Origin: Bacteroidota bacterium
GTDB taxonomy: Bacteria > Bacteroidota > Bacteroidia > Cytophagales > Cyclobacteriaceae
Length of the DNA: 64,000 nt
Direction of reading: 5' to 3'
Assembly (NCBI GenBank): GCA_024280115.1
Contig: JAJRQT010000018.1
Location: forward strand, 1-64,000
The notes below the pieces were generated by a model. That model was not told the DNA's origin. It was given only the letters and a program-made list of their open reading frames with translations, and ran no database searches. The stretch's first letter is position 1; every line of letters begins with the position of its first letter. Positions 805-5,220 of this stretch are shown here, piece by piece. A program made the position numbers and the translations under genes.

Positions 805-848
805 ATTTAGCCGTTGTAAAGCATATAAATTAACTCTACTGCATCAAA

Positions 849-883: not shown

Positions 884-1663
884 GTGGACAAAATAGGTAA
901 TATAGAAATCAGAGTAATCGGTAAGTCAGGCAATTTAGAATTAAAGCCTGAAAACTATGACATAAAACATATTTCAAGCATATTGCAAAATGTTGAAGAC
1001 TTGTTATATCCAAATAACAAGAAAGACAGACCTTTAATTACATACAATATTGAAGAAGGCTCTGTAAGACACATTTTTAAGACCCCAATTCAATACATTA
1101 TTGGATTTAGTGCAATATTGGTACAAATTCAAGAGACAAGTTCAATTGACTTCTTGGATTTAAAAACGGCTAGGGCTATTGAAAGTATTCAACAGCTATC
1201 ACAACAGAAAAATTATGAATTTCAGTTCACTACATCCATTAAAAACAATATTGAACTTTCTATAAATCCAACCACAAAATTTTTTAGAACTGAAAATACT
1301 TGGGTTGACGCTGAATTTTATTTCTATGGTATATTAAAAGATGCTGGAGGTAAAAGCAAAGCCAATATTCATATAGATACTGATGACTATGGGTATTTAG
1401 CAATAGAAACAGGGCAAGATTTTTTGATGGAACAAGAAGAGAACTTGCTTTATAAAAAATTTGGTGTCCGTGCTACAGGAAAACAAAACCTTGAAACTGC
1501 CGAAATAGATACTAAAACCTTGAAATTGGTTGAACTAATAAATTACAGTCCAAAGTATGACTCTGATTACCTTTCTCTGCTAATCAATAAGGCAAAAAAG
1601 AGTTGGAAAGGAATTGACTCAGATGATTGGCTTTTAAATTTAAGAGGAGGATATGAAGCATAG
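884..1663 (+). CDS. Unknown 259-aa partner of a PIN-domain protein
   Basis: This 259-residue cytosolic protein has no domain I can name. It is alpha/beta in character: an N-terminal strand-rich part (IEIRVIGKSGNLELKPENY), a central segment with the phrase EEGSVRHIF, and a charged C-terminal tail ending in WLLNLRGGYEA. Its last 11 bases overlap the start of the PIN gene, so the two are translationally coupled and probably act together. By position it would be the antitoxin-like or regulatory member. However, it is three to four times longer than a VapB antitoxin and shows no AbrB, RHH or HTH motif near its N-terminus. The tail could be the neutralising peptide. The GTG start is chosen because it directly follows a good promoter; no in-frame ATG lies near it. 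Confidence 0.75.
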   Translation: MDKIGNIEIRVIGKSGNLELKPENYDIKHISSILQNVEDLLYPNNKKDRPLITYNIEEGSVRHIFKTPIQYIIGFSAILVQIQETSSIDFLDLKTARAIESIQQLSQQKNYEFQFTTSIKNNIELSINPTTKFFRTENTWVDAEFYFYGILKDAGGKSKANIHIDTDDYGYLAIETGQDFLMEQEENLLYKKFGVRATGKQNLETAEIDTKTLKLVELINYSPKYDSDYLSLLINKAKKSWKGIDSDDWLLNLRGGYEA

Positions 1664-2138
1664 TGTTCTACTCGATACCAGTTTCTTTGTTCGACTATTA
1701 AATGATGAAGATAGACTTCACAACAATGCAAAAGGGTACTTTCGATACTTTCTAGAAAATGAAATTGTTCTTAAAGTTTCTACTATATCAATAGCTGAAT
1801 ATTGTGTAAGAGGGGAAATTGATGAATTGCCTTTACGTAATATTCAAATCATTCCATTTAACTTAGATCAAGCCCAAAAAACAGGAGAATTTGCTAAGGT
1901 AATATTTGAAGAAAATAAGTTAAACAAGGAAAGACTTGAGCCCAGAGCAATTATACCTAATGATTCAAAACTATTTGCTCAAGCGGATTTAGATAAAACC
2001 ATTACACATTTTGTCACTTCAGATAGTAGATCAAAAAATACATTTCAAGCACTTAAGAAACGATTAAACCCAAAATTTGGGATAATTGACATTACAAATC
2101 CGTTTAATGAAACTTTTGGAATTTTGGATTTGCAATAA
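1653..2138 (+). CDS. PIN-domain ribonuclease, VapC-like toxin candidate
   Basis: This 161-residue protein is a single PIN domain, the Mg2+-dependent RNase fold of VapC toxins. The acidic metal site is complete: Asp8 in VLLDTSFF, Glu49 in SIAEYC, Asp104 in IPNDSKLFAQA, and Asp124 in FVTSDSR. The length is slightly above the usual 130-145 residues of VapC. It starts at ATG 1653 inside the 3' end of the upstream 259-residue gene (11-nt overlap), the arrangement expected of a toxin-antitoxin operon. RNase activity and tRNA or rRNA targets are family knowledge; toxicity here is inference. Confidence 0.85.
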   Translation: MKHSVLLDTSFFVRLLNDEDRLHNNAKGYFRYFLENEIVLKVSTISIAEYCVRGEIDELPLRNIQIIPFNLDQAQKTGEFAKVIFEENKLNKERLEPRAIIPNDSKLFAQADLDKTITHFVTSDSRSKNTFQALKKRLNPKFGIIDITNPFNETFGILDLQ

Positions 2139-2435
2139 GAATAATTCGCTTTACAATAAATAGGAGAGCGGTCTGCAAGACCGAGCGATTAGTCCATGTT
2201 GAACTACATCCCGGATATATGGCTATGTACTTACTGAGGGCTTTTATAATCGTTGTGGAAATTTCGAGGGATAGGAAGGCAAATGCAATCTTCAAATTTT
2301 AGCTGATACTCGATGGAAAGCCTCTTGTATTGTATGATTTTGACTGGTTTTCCTACCCATAAGGCAATACGAATCCTTTGTTCATGAAAATGAAGTTATA
2401 GAAGGAAAGAATTACAGTAAAAGTGACATAAATGA
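2139..2435. other. Gap with degraded coding sequence left of the IS element
   Basis: No intact gene is visible. Two adjoining reading frames give protein-like fragments: GKPLVLYDFDWFSYP at about 2314-2358, then PIRQYESFVHENEVIEGKNY reaching the IS boundary. They suggest one gene broken by a frameshift and by the insertion at 2436-2439. A short dyad CGGTC/GACCG occurs near 2170. I assign no function. Confidence 0.3.
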
Positions 2436-3584
2436 GTTCACAGAATATCGGCCGGGAGACCGAATACGAGGTAATTCTCTGATTATACACATTCTCCCCT
2501 TTTTACATACAGGACATTGATATACATCAAATCCGGTAAGGCGGTAGAGCCGCTCCTGTGCAGTTTCCTTTTCCGGTTTTTTCTCAGCGCTGACTATATC
2601 TACTTTTTCTTCCTTCTTAAATTGCAATTTCAGGTTACGTTTGGTGGTATGGTTGTAAATTCCATAGCGCCTGATTTTTACAAACTGCCGTGGTAAAATG
2701 TGCATGCAAAACCGCCGTAAAAATTCAACACCTTCAAGAATTACCTGTTTTTTAATAGCCTTATCGCGATAATCTTTTGTAATGAAGGTTACATGTGTAT
2801 CGGAAATATTGAGCAACCGCTGGTTGCTAATGGCCACACGGTGGGTGTATTGCCCAAGATATCTAACAACGTGTTCTGCATTAGCCATTGATGGTTCACA
2901 AAATACGACCCATTTGGTTTCCCATGCTCTTTGTATGAGAGGATCAAACCCGGCAAGCGCCTGTTTTTTCTTTAGCCACCTCATCAGAGAATCCAGAAAT
3001 TTACCCCTGAAAGTTTTACTGAGCTGATGTACAGGGTACAGGTAGTTTTCAAATGTGCCAATATGTTTCCATTCACCAGAAAGTGAATATCCGGCAGCCG
3101 GGACAATGCAATGCACATGAGGGTGTAGCGAGAGGTTCTGCCCCCAGGTATGGAGCACACAAACAGCACCGCTTTCCACTCCATAATGCGTATATCCAAA
3201 ACTATGCAATGTCTTCCATACGGCAGAAAACAGTAAGCGGTAAAATTCACGATCATTAAAAAGGCAAATTTTATTCAAACAATGCGGAACGGTAAACACA
3301 ATATGATAATGCTTGACCGGCAAGGTCGATTCAAGCAACTGCTCAATCCATAGGGCCTGTTTTGCAGCCTGACATTTTGGGCAATGCCTGTCCCCGCAGC
3401 TATTGTAACTATAGCGTAGCTCTCCACAACAATCACACTGCTCTTCATGCCCGCCCAGGGAAGCCGTTCGGCATTGCACAAGCTTGTGCAATGTTTTTAT
3501 TTGATACGGGGTCAGCTTATCCTTCGATACCAGTGCTTTTCCGAAACGTCGGATAATACCTGCTAATTCAAACTTAGTCCTCAT
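2412..3584 (-). CDS. IS91-family transposase (rolling-circle, HUH type)
   Basis: This 390-residue protein carries the family hallmarks in order. An N-terminal Cys cluster (Cys50, 52, 53, 63, 68, 71; zinc-finger-like) is followed by the metal-binding motif HPHVH at residues 154-158 and then the two catalytic tyrosines in YLGQY at 242 and 246, as in IS91/IS801 rather than the one-tyrosine ISCR group. It nicks and transfers single-stranded DNA in rolling-circle transposition. The start is placed at ATG 3584, where the sequence ATGAGGACTAA overlaps the stop of the recombinase gene, rather than at the longer open frame. The last codons (SFMSLLL) and the stop lie beyond the inferred element end, so the C-terminus is probably supplied by flanking DNA. 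Confidence 0.9.
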   Translation of the reverse strand: MRTKFELAGIIRRFGKALVSKDKLTPYQIKTLHKLVQCRTASLGGHEEQCDCCGELRYSYNSCGDRHCPKCQAAKQALWIEQLLESTLPVKHYHIVFTVPHCLNKICLFNDREFYRLLFSAVWKTLHSFGYTHYGVESGAVCVLHTWGQNLSLHPHVHCIVPAAGYSLSGEWKHIGTFENYLYPVHQLSKTFRGKFLDSLMRWLKKKQALAGFDPLIQRAWETKWVVFCEPSMANAEHVVRYLGQYTHRVAISNQRLLNISDTHVTFITKDYRDKAIKKQVILEGVEFLRRFCMHILPRQFVKIRRYGIYNHTTKRNLKLQFKKEEKVDIVSAEKKPEKETAQERLYRLTGFDVYQCPVCKKGRMCIIRELPRIRSPGRYSVNSFMSLLL

Positions 3585-4584
3585 TTTTCGCCTTTCCGAA
3601 ATACAAGGTATCAAGCGGACTATGGGCTTTAATGTGCCTGCACTGGGCCACATGCAAATAAATCATCGTTGTGGTGATATCTGCGTGCCCCAGAAGATCT
3701 TTAAGGGTCACAATATTCAATCCATCTTCGAGCAGATGGGTGGCATAAGCATGTCGCAGAGAGTGCAGGTTGACATCTTTGGCAATAGATGTTTTCTTCA
3801 GGTTTTCACGCATTACCCATGCAAGCCCGCGCATACTGTATTGACTTGCGGGTTGTTTCCCGTTGAAGAGCCACATATATGGATTTTCTGCCTTCATGTA
3901 CTTTTGCAACCCCTTTGCCATGGTGGGAGAAAGGGGTACAATGCGGTCTTTCTTATACTTTGTCTGGCGGATATGAATGGTCATCCGCTCAAAATCAATA
4001 TCTGAAATTTTCAGGTTTATCGCCTCACTACCCCGTAATCCGGCAGAGTAAATAAGGGTAAGGACAATACGTTGTTTCAGCAATTTGGGCACACGAAACA
4101 ATTCTTTCAGTTCCTTTCTATTAAGGATCACAGGGAGTTTTGTTTCTCGTTTCAAAGAAGGCAGGGCAATAGCACGTTTGTTTATACCAATGAGCCGGTA
4201 ATAATATCTCAAACCATATACCATGTGCTTAAAACTGCTACGAGACGGCGACTTTGGATCTCGGGCAAGAGCCGCCAGATATTCGTTGATCTCATCTTCC
4301 TCAATGAGTTCGGGTAGTCTTCCAAAATGAAGGCAGAATAGGGCAATCCGTCTGATGTAATTATTCAGAGTACTCATACTTTGCCCGCGCAGGGTGACTT
4401 GCAGTTCCAACTTTTTGACAACCGCTTCAAACCCAGGAACTGCAATAATTGCACGTTCCACAATTGTAAATCCTGTTTTCTTTCTCATAATGATAAATAG
4501 TTAAAGTGTGTATTATCTATTTATATGGATTTGAAGAGAAAAGGATTGTAGTATATTTGAGAAAAGCTATCCCGTAGGGATTTA
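2440..4584 (-). mobile_element. IS91-family element with tyrosine recombinase
   Basis: The element holds a Y2-type HUH transposase and an upstream tyrosine recombinase on the minus strand. It is bracketed by GTTC at 2436-2439 and GTTC at 4585-4588. IS91 elements insert beside GTTC/GAAC or CTTG/CAAG tetranucleotides at the replication-origin end, which here would be the left end, downstream of the transposase. The left end carries the dyad CGG...CCG at 2449-2463, a candidate origin hairpin. The right end carries the perfect palindrome ATCCCGTAGGGAT at 4569-4581, a candidate terminus hairpin. Boundaries are inferred from these signs and from restoration of an attC box when the element is removed. 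Confidence 0.65.
3574..4488 (-). CDS. Tyrosine recombinase (XerD/phage-integrase type) of the IS91 element
   Basis: This 304-residue protein has an N-terminal SAM-like core-binding domain (about residues 20-105) and a C-terminal catalytic domain with all residues present: Arg152 in AGLRGSEA, Lys177 in the beta-hairpin, His242 and Arg245 in HSLRHAYATHLL, His268 in LLGHADITTT, and nucleophile Tyr277. It overlaps the transposase start by 11 bases, so the two are co-translated. Recombinases in this position accompany many IS91 transposases. Although it lies beside an attC-like site, the length and the stretch before HSLRH resemble ordinary XerD-like enzymes, and I see no extra integron-integrase insertion. 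Confidence 0.9.
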   Translation of the reverse strand: MRKKTGFTIVERAIIAVPGFEAVVKKLELQVTLRGQSMSTLNNYIRRIALFCLHFGRLPELIEEDEINEYLAALARDPKSPSRSSFKHMVYGLRYYYRLIGINKRAIALPSLKRETKLPVILNRKELKELFRVPKLLKQRIVLTLIYSAGLRGSEAINLKISDIDFERMTIHIRQTKYKKDRIVPLSPTMAKGLQKYMKAENPYMWLFNGKQPASQYSMRGLAWVMRENLKKTSIAKDVNLHSLRHAYATHLLEDGLNIVTLKDLLGHADITTTMIYLHVAQCRHIKAHSPLDTLYFGKAKNED

Positions 4585-4719
4585 GTTCAACAACGTGCAA
4601 ATCGCAATGGCGGGCAATCAAGTTTTCTGACATTTATAATTTTATTAACTTTACGCAGGTCTGCGGACACATCATGATTGGAAAGCCCCGCCACTGTCGT
4701 TTGCACAAGGCCGTTAAAT
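4585..4719 (+). other. Integron attC-like recombination site
   Basis: The segment has the layout of an attC site. It contains an R'' box GTTCAAC (4585-4591, fits RYYYAAC), left arm GTGCAAA (4595-4601) plus TGGCGGG (4608-4614), a central loop region, the complementary arms CCCGCCA (4687-4693) and TTTGCAC (4700-4706), and an R' box GTTAAAT (4713-4719, fits GTTRRRY). The two arms differ by one base in length, as expected for extrahelical bases, and unpaired spacers of 3 and 6 nt separate the arms from the boxes. The total length of 135 bp is within the known range. No integron integrase is present in the window, so this would be a solitary site. The next start codon is 7 bases beyond the R' box. 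Confidence 0.6.
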
Positions 4720-4725
4720 ACATTC

Positions 4726-5220
4726 ATGAAGAGACTAATAATATTCATCCCACTAGTTTTTATGCTTGAATATTTCCTGTGGAACATCCCCCCTATACTG
4801 ATATATCACAATAGTCAAATAATTAGAGGAATTTCCATGTTCGGAACTGTTTTTTTATTCATTCCAACATTCATATATCTATCCGTTAGCAAACTAAAAT
4901 CTAAAAATTGGGCAGTGATTGCTTTAATTTCCATACCAATAAACGGATTCGGATTAGCATTAACAGTACAAAAAAGAGAATTGTCAGAATTGAAGCAAAG
5001 TGGTCTAATCACAACTGGAATAATAATTGAAAAATCCAAAGCCCCAAGAAGATATGTTAATGACTGGCAGGTGAAATCGATATTTCAGATAAACAATGAA
5101 CAAGTAATTACAGAATGGCGACCTGACTTTGAAAATAACTTAACAACCGGAGACAGTATCAAAATAATTTATTTACCGAAGTTTCCCAAAGTCAATCGAT
5201 TAAACAAGGAACTAAAATAA
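4726..5220 (+). CDS. Small membrane protein, cassette-like
   Basis: This 164-residue protein has about three hydrophobic segments (residues 3-22, 32-53, 59-77). A soluble C-terminal half follows with a beta-rich stretch reminiscent of DUF3592-type domains (TTGIIIEKSKAPRRYVNDWQ, then GDSIKIIYLPKFP). That domain match is from memory and weak. ATG 4726 lies 7 bp after the attC-like R' box, the spacing usual for an integron cassette gene; the longer open frame upstream would start inside the attC arm and is rejected. No second complete attC follows the gene, so it may have been stranded. Function unknown. Confidence 0.7.
   Translation: MKRLIIFIPLVFMLEYFLWNIPPILIYHNSQIIRGISMFGTVFLFIPTFIYLSVSKLKSKNWAVIALISIPINGFGLALTVQKRELSELKQSGLITTGIIIEKSKAPRRYVNDWQVKSIFQINNEQVITEWRPDFENNLTTGDSIKIIYLPKFPKVNRLNKELK

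Follow-up and report, generated by a model that had tools for sequence, protein, structure and literature searches.

Integrons, the class 1 and Vibrio forms of which depend on the integrase IntI, are built of units in which a gene is followed by a 3′ hairpin site, attC, with RYYYAAC and GTTR boxes and a crossover at G^TT. The R″ box is complementary to the leader of its own cassette, and the ORFs stand in one-direction arrays that are headed by a tyrosine recombinase together with an attI-like sequence. All of these properties are shared with the system described below. IntI is defined by its additional domain (the archaeal integron paper and others; PMC9668308), and with IntegronFinder 2.0 one complete integron was found in Bacteroidetes, in Salinibacter ruber (PMC9024848). 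A widespread structured motif that starts with RYYYAAC, OTH-22-1, has been described as probably a novel form of attC, without overlap with known attC annotations (PMC8632094, 2021). The main text of that paper gives no integrase, cassette boundaries or transposon; OTH-22-1 may belong to the same family as the sites treated here.

Parasites that target attC are also known, namely, the IS1111-attC insertion sequences and the group IIC-attC introns. The element described here does likewise, but those parasites use unrelated enzymes (a DEDD transposase and an intron-encoded reverse transcriptase, respectively) and other positions in attC. With IS91 and ISCR it has in common an HUH Y2 and zinc-binding transposase and a length of about 2.4 kb; it differs from them in having a tyrosine recombinase and in entering the R″ core of attC rather than a position after GAAC/CAAG. 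IS91 ends carry hairpins, and the IS catalogues list IS91 members with an integrase-like ORF. In the open-access literature, we found neither targeting of attC by such an IS91 element with a recombinase nor an integron with the type of integrase that we call IntB. The novelty of the IntB-type cassette system and of the attC-homing element is, therefore, provisional.

The site in the window

The window, i.e., the whole 64-kb stretch of DNA that was analysed, contains a site that the preliminary description had taken for a solitary integron attC, followed as in a cassette by a membrane-protein gene. Positions 4585 to 4591 read GTTCAAC and are followed by the spacer AAC (4592–4594). The arms of the hairpin are GTGCAAA (4595–4601) and TGGCGGG (4608–4614) on one side and CCCGCCA (4687–4693) and TTTGCAC (4700–4706) on the other, after which AAGGCC (4707–4712) leads to the R′ box GTTAAAT (4713–4719), whose cut would fall at G4713^T4714. 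All the motifs named earlier are thus where they had been placed, and the unpaired spacers of 3 and 6 nt are indeed AAC and AAGGCC. The one-base difference in arm length is not there: the arms are 7/7 and the internal spacers 6/6. In the attC-like sites, the asymmetry is clear at the level of the spacers, not of single extrahelical bases. Whichever strand is taken, the single-strand fold of the site is better than those of 198 out of 200 dinucleotide-shuffled sequences (z −2.5), and the hairpin would presumably act as a folded single strand. A scan with Rfam gave no family match at the site.

The letters GTTCAAC, quoted as the R″ box, are present, but six of the seven bases (4585–4590) are the end of an IS91-family element, since the exact ends of such elements, known from copies in Alkaliflexus, assign GTTCAA to element DNA. 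Once the element is removed, the native R″ of the site is TTTACAAC, which fits YAAC, not the full RYYYAAC; core boxes of the attC type, R″ and R′, flank an imperfect hairpin. The window site is a real gene-cassette recombination site that is neither solitary nor intact, and the locus, as read from the boundaries in Table 1, is almost certainly a cassette site interrupted by the element. A DNA search of 97 other genomes with the 135-bp site and with its 646-bp flank found no relative, and the comparison with an empty site was, therefore, made on a target in Myroides instead.

Table 1. Positions of the features discussed (window coordinates, except for the last line).
Feature	Position	Strand	Remarks
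Leader at the 5′ end of the cassette, GTTGTAAAGC	813–822	+	The native R″, GCTTTACAAC, is its exact reverse complement
Cassette ORF 1	884–1663	+	259 aa, GTG start
Cassette ORF 2	1653–2138	+	161 aa, weak PIN-domain match
Native R″, left part, GCTTTACAA	2148–2156	+	The element separates GCTTTACAA from C4591
IS91-family element, 2,434 bp	2157–4590	−	Tyrosine recombinase and IS91 transposase
attC-like terminal hairpin of the element	2157–2212	−	GTTCAAC...stem...CTATTTA
IS91-family transposase	2412–3653	−	Zinc-binding and Y2_Tnp/HUH
Tyrosine recombinase IS91-int, 304 aa	3574–4488	−	IntI/XerA-like, without the IntI-specific region
GTTCAA, rebuilding an R″ box	4585–4590	+	Element end (TTGAAC on the minus strand)
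attC-like site	4591–4719	+	C of YAA^C, imperfect hairpin of about 120 nt, R′ GTTAAAT; R1 and fold
Membrane-protein ORF	4726–5220	+	Directly after R′
Resistance genes with R1-type sites	L173 (NZ_CP072214.1, Bacteroides xylanisolvens plasmid), L171, L172, L107

A family of related sites

Alignment A1 and the covariance model R1 were built from 21 target hairpins, with the window site left out. These training sites were picked for having hairpins beside elements, a choice that has no bearing on the scans of other genomes. The choice by hairpin inflates the percentage of paired positions; it does not explain double changes in register, and all 13 of the 13 predicted pairs show changes on both sides that preserve pairing. 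The covariation score, 0.739, falls to 0.189 or less once the partner is shifted by 1–3 columns. The centre of three A1 training sites was misaligned by MAFFT, which weakens R1 and leaves the stem analysis unaffected. The sites differ from the attCs of integrons in their uniform length of about 127 nt and in their unpaired spacers of 1–3 vs. 5–6 nt.

On the 64-kb window, R1 has a sole match, at 4589–4719, with exact ends (21.3 bits, E 0.022). It is an attC-like site, in the orientation first given to it. The site is a low-scoring, diverged member of the family, too low for the genome-wide R1 list. On the whole genome, R1 gives 13 other matches, 11 of them at E below 0.003, at dispersed places, so that the further copies foreseen by the preliminary description do exist and the word “solitary” has to be dropped. 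At most of the sites in this genome, an ORF stops 9–16 nt before the site and the next ORF starts within about 35 nt after it. In an even sample of the class Bacteroidia, about two thirds of the genomes (262 of 395) have R1 sites. The sites are also present in 7 of 15 Bacteroidota genomes outside the class that bear IntI, so the family reaches somewhat beyond Bacteroidia. In one relative only (L152, positions 1718–1787), the R′ end of an R1 site coincides in part with an Rfam family, the DUF805 RNA motif (RF03081), and the DUF805 cis-regulatory family may consist in part of attC and leader sequences of cassettes.

Cassettes and their boundaries

If the unit between two consecutive sites circularises, the leader that follows a given site is expected to be complementary to the R″ of the site after it. 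In 25 of 46 such pairs, at least 6 of the 8 positions beyond GTT match, a level that is reached by 2% of mismatched pairs, and the observed mean was reached in none of 5000 permutations. Several of the failures are explained by an R″ that now reads GTTGAAC, another element of the IS91-int kind sitting there. Matches of 10 nt are found for aadS, for tet(X2) (after a one-base shift) and for a unit with ere(D), and R1-type sites follow OXA-347, blaMYO-1 and a Myroides blaOXA. The gene aadS occurs in five contexts as a common block, from G^TTGTACGACATAG through attC to CG^TT, with neighbours that differ on both sides. From such blocks and matches, R1-type sites are read as cassette ends with G^TT boundaries.

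An imperfect, intergenic palindrome of which the genome holds dispersed copies could also be an ordinary REP/BIME-type palindrome, a MITE or an intergenic transcription terminator, and a REP element had indeed been named as the alternative. Against any of these, the aadS blocks have exact G^TT boundaries and unrelated flanks, the partner of R″ is the leader of the cassette to which it belongs and nothing local, the arrays run in one direction behind a single recombinase, and a transposon uses the hairpin precisely as its insertion site. We consider an origin as a repeat or terminator extremely improbable and return to cassette ends.

In the window, the leader and the native R″ (Table 1) are complementary at 10 of 10 bases, for which the chance expectation is 0.0003 per 300 nt. 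The cassette thus appears to span 814–2156 joined to 4591–4713, its left boundary probably falling at G813^T814, and would be a two-gene PIN-domain unit whose boundaries are known from sequence only. A family search with ORF 1 found no known family. ORF 2 matches PF01850 at E 0.0087, below the curated cut-off, and its stop lies 18 bp before the inserted element. It is proposed that this cassette would circularise by crossover at G^TT, its own leader pairing with R″. The downstream ORF does start just beyond R′, with ATG at 4726, as first described; it is not the cassette of this attC, which belongs to the upstream two-gene unit. Its place after R′ would suit the next cassette of an array, but a second attC, or a matching R″, was sought downstream of that ORF and none was found.

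The inserted element

To map the ends of the element, 7 copies from Alkaliflexus and about 40 further insertions were compared with it, and relatives of its recombinase were collected from GTDB genomes, plasmids and the genomes of the class. In Alkaliflexus imshenetskii, the seven copies are nearly identical and have unrelated flanks, which fixes the boundaries exactly, as TT|GAACTAAATCC beside the recombinase and as CTATATA|TT at the far end. Related copies terminate in TTGAACTAA[AT]CC. The transposase is an intact IS91 type (PF04986, E 7e-52; PF14319, E 2e-29; NF033538, 395.8 bits). The second protein, IS91-int, is a tyrosine recombinase (PF00589, E 2e-34) that scores 155 bits with the IntI profile TIGR02249, under its cut-off of 265, and leaves positions 184–245 of the IntI profile unmatched. 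Thus, the earlier statement that the window lacks an integron integrase is right in that there is no IntI, but it passed over this related recombinase, which begins 97 bp away from the site. By sequence, the nearest solved relatives of IS91-int and of IntB are the archaeal XerA (5HXY), an XerC-like protein (4A8E) and VchIntI4 (2A3V), the last of which is matched in two pieces, consistent with an absent IntI-specific region.

The right end of the element reads GGGATGTAGTTCAAC-stem-loop-stem-CTATTTA, and in a circle TTGAACTAAATCCC would come next, so that an attC-like hairpin is made up of the right end and the first part of the left end. The GGGATGTAGTTCAA of this terminal hairpin is an inverted copy of the opposite element end, TTGAACTAAATCCC, and across 29 elements the letters of the stem are seen to change on both sides. 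This attC-like right end and the changes in its stem indicate that the element has a cassette-like organisation, its attC being short. In one tandem copy (L021), a single TT stands where the right end directly abuts the following left end, which is what a shared TT overlap at the crossover would give. As TT is shared at the insertion point, the exact crossover base cannot be read. We propose that the element, like a cassette, would recombine at the same TT.

Because the hairpin of the window site abuts the element end, and IS91 ends carry hairpins, one might take it for an end structure (oriIS or terIS) of the element itself. However, the nearly identical Alkaliflexus copies have differing flank hairpins or none, and the same hairpin exists without the element in the Myroides target and in most genomes of the class, which leaves this assignment with next to no probability. 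The hairpin is that of the interrupted cassette site.

Choice of target

TT is preceded by G in 45 of 51 independent insertions. When scored against control GTT positions, the flank has a hairpin above 95% of the null in 25 of the 51 insertions (2.5 expected) and above 99% in 14 (0.5 expected); by this simple score, about half of the insertions are without a clear hairpin flank, and one (L016) is without TT. The rebuilt empty sites consist of a gene stop, 10–20 nt, NNYAA^C, a hairpin of about 120 nt, 5–6 nt and GTTR. The abutting R1 site, where one is found, is on the strand opposite to the element genes, and the polarity of insertion is thus fixed. For the Myroides plasmid target, the uninterrupted form, the 3′ end of aadS with its site, is present in four plasmids (from Riemerella, Empedobacter and two Bacteroides). 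R1 sites are present in each of the 19 genomes with IS91-int (E 1e-60) and in 243 of the 376 others (p 3e-4).

In the scheme that we favour, the element has inserted at the R″ side of attC, where YAA^C equals G^TT on the other strand. This polarity, opposite to that of cassette insertion, suggests that the element uses the other strand of the hairpin. The element was probably placed by its own tyrosine recombinase, IS91-int being the presumed catalyst of insertion. The IS91 transposase would supply replication, rolling-circle copying being the obvious guess.

The transposase being an intact IS91 type, and GAAC standing at the recombinase-side end of every copy, the HUH enzyme could instead have placed the element at a GAAC tetranucleotide, as in IS91, with the tyrosine recombinase irrelevant to insertion. 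Yet the empty sites read NNYAA|C and lack GAAC, as does the uninterrupted aadS site, so that the GAAC/CAAG target tetranucleotide of the IS91 type is not seen in them and GAAC belongs to the element. Moreover, the targets follow the R″ boxes of attC, with fixed polarity. Placement by the HUH transposase is, in our judgement, unlikely, and we retain insertion by IS91-int.

In the genome of the window, ends of other elements lie at R″ boxes (L142, sites 3206 and 4669; L144; L148) and read ..GGTTTGGTTC|AAC and ..GGGGGTTC|AAC, which indicates that several related element families share the attC target. In A. imshenetskii, one element with IS91-int (L022) lies within a CRISPR array, in a spacer that holds the palindrome CACTATACATAGTG. 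In two further loci (L014 and L102), the flank at the recombinase end resembles a group II intron at its 3′ end, which would fit attC-type targets common to both. Structural variants of the target hairpin also occur, either of greater length (about 180 nt) or almost perfectly palindromic (genome G628, L094; L087 and L097).

A candidate integrase

IntB is a label coined here for an XerA-like recombinase of about 380 aa. The IntB of locus L008 (378 aa) scores 230 bits with the XerA family and 220 bits with the IntI profile (cut-off 265), and has about 100 additional N-terminal residues. It differs from the integrase of integrons in being XerA-like, without the IntI-specific region and under the IntI cut-off. 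In an unrooted tree made by a quick method, each of IntB, IS91-int, IntI and Xer is a group of its own; Xer stands apart from the other three, which fall together, and the IntB group has a weak support of 75.

About half of the Bacteroidia genomes (201 of 395) have IntB relatives. R1 sites are present in 179 of these 201 and in 83 of the 194 without IntB (odds ratio 10.9, p 2e-23). Around 40 IntB genes, taken by their own score regardless of sites, with up to 9 kb on each side, 46 of 47 R1 sites are downstream and on the same strand, the upstream sequence searched being 1.8 times the downstream. The stretch from the IntB stop to the first cassette often holds a palindrome, with G^TTR and the leader motif after it; this attI-like palindrome exceeds 95% of the null in 24 of 35 cases and 99% in 16 of 35. 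The layout of integrase, attI and directional array is seen in relatives that have IntB, and the window contig, which starts at position 1, is without it. Unlike in integrons, IntB has the same direction as the array, and a palindrome is part of the attI. Some IntI integrons, e.g., those of Treponema, also have a co-oriented integrase. Since the arrays are downstream and co-oriented, with a palindromic attI-like sequence between, IntB is quite likely to be the cassette integrase, the genomic linkage being an association and not proof of catalysis.

The original assignment was to an integron attC; a classical one would here stand in a CALIN and be mobilised in trans by a canonical IntI. The design is that of attC, with boxes like RYYYAAC and GTTRRRY, a hairpin and a cut at G^TT, and the 7 of 15 IntI-holding Bacteroidota genomes outside the class that carry the site type speak for it as well. 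Nevertheless, an IntI above the cut-off is found in 1 of the 395 genomes of the class, against 262 with sites, and none was found in the source genome. R1 does not recognise the attCs beside true IntI genes, giving one weak match in 225 kb around them; those attCs look different (L140), and the arrays considered here stand behind IntB, not IntI. Mobilisation by a canonical IntI is, accordingly, very unlikely, and the site type appears to belong to a cassette system that runs on another integrase than that of the classical integrons.

The explanation that best covers the whole, and that we hold to be highly likely, is that of an interrupted cassette site of a Bacteroidota type, an element that enters attC, and IntB as the likely integrase. 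The site family, the cassette boundaries, the element ends, the empty target, the polarity and the linkage of IntB to the arrays are all read directly from sequence comparison. On a wider view, it is rather likely that a second kind of integron, one with an IntB integrase, a palindromic attI and an attC of about 127 nt, is present in most Bacteroidia, that it moves tet(X), aadS and the carbapenemase gene blaMYO and that it is parasitised by IS91-type transposons with an acquired recombinase and a cassette-like end. It would have been overlooked since the detection tools require IntI and its attC profile.

If the function of the recombinase is as proposed, integron-type gene capture would be common in a dominant gut and environmental group, and it would explain by what mechanism tet(X), aadS and related resistance genes move in Bacteroidota. 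It would also allow a fresh look at how IntI arose among XerA-like recombinases. The attC-homing IS91 element, which would be a transposon built like a cassette, is a separate surprise.

In the genome of the window, the IntB gene (G000:C106:21270-22921, L003) is broken, with a GIY-YIG ORF of about 270 bp in mid-gene and a TAG in the C-terminal half; therefore, mobility of cassettes in this strain is not implied. About 150 nt past this gene, an element end, TTGAACGAAACC, stands after CG, at an attI-like position.
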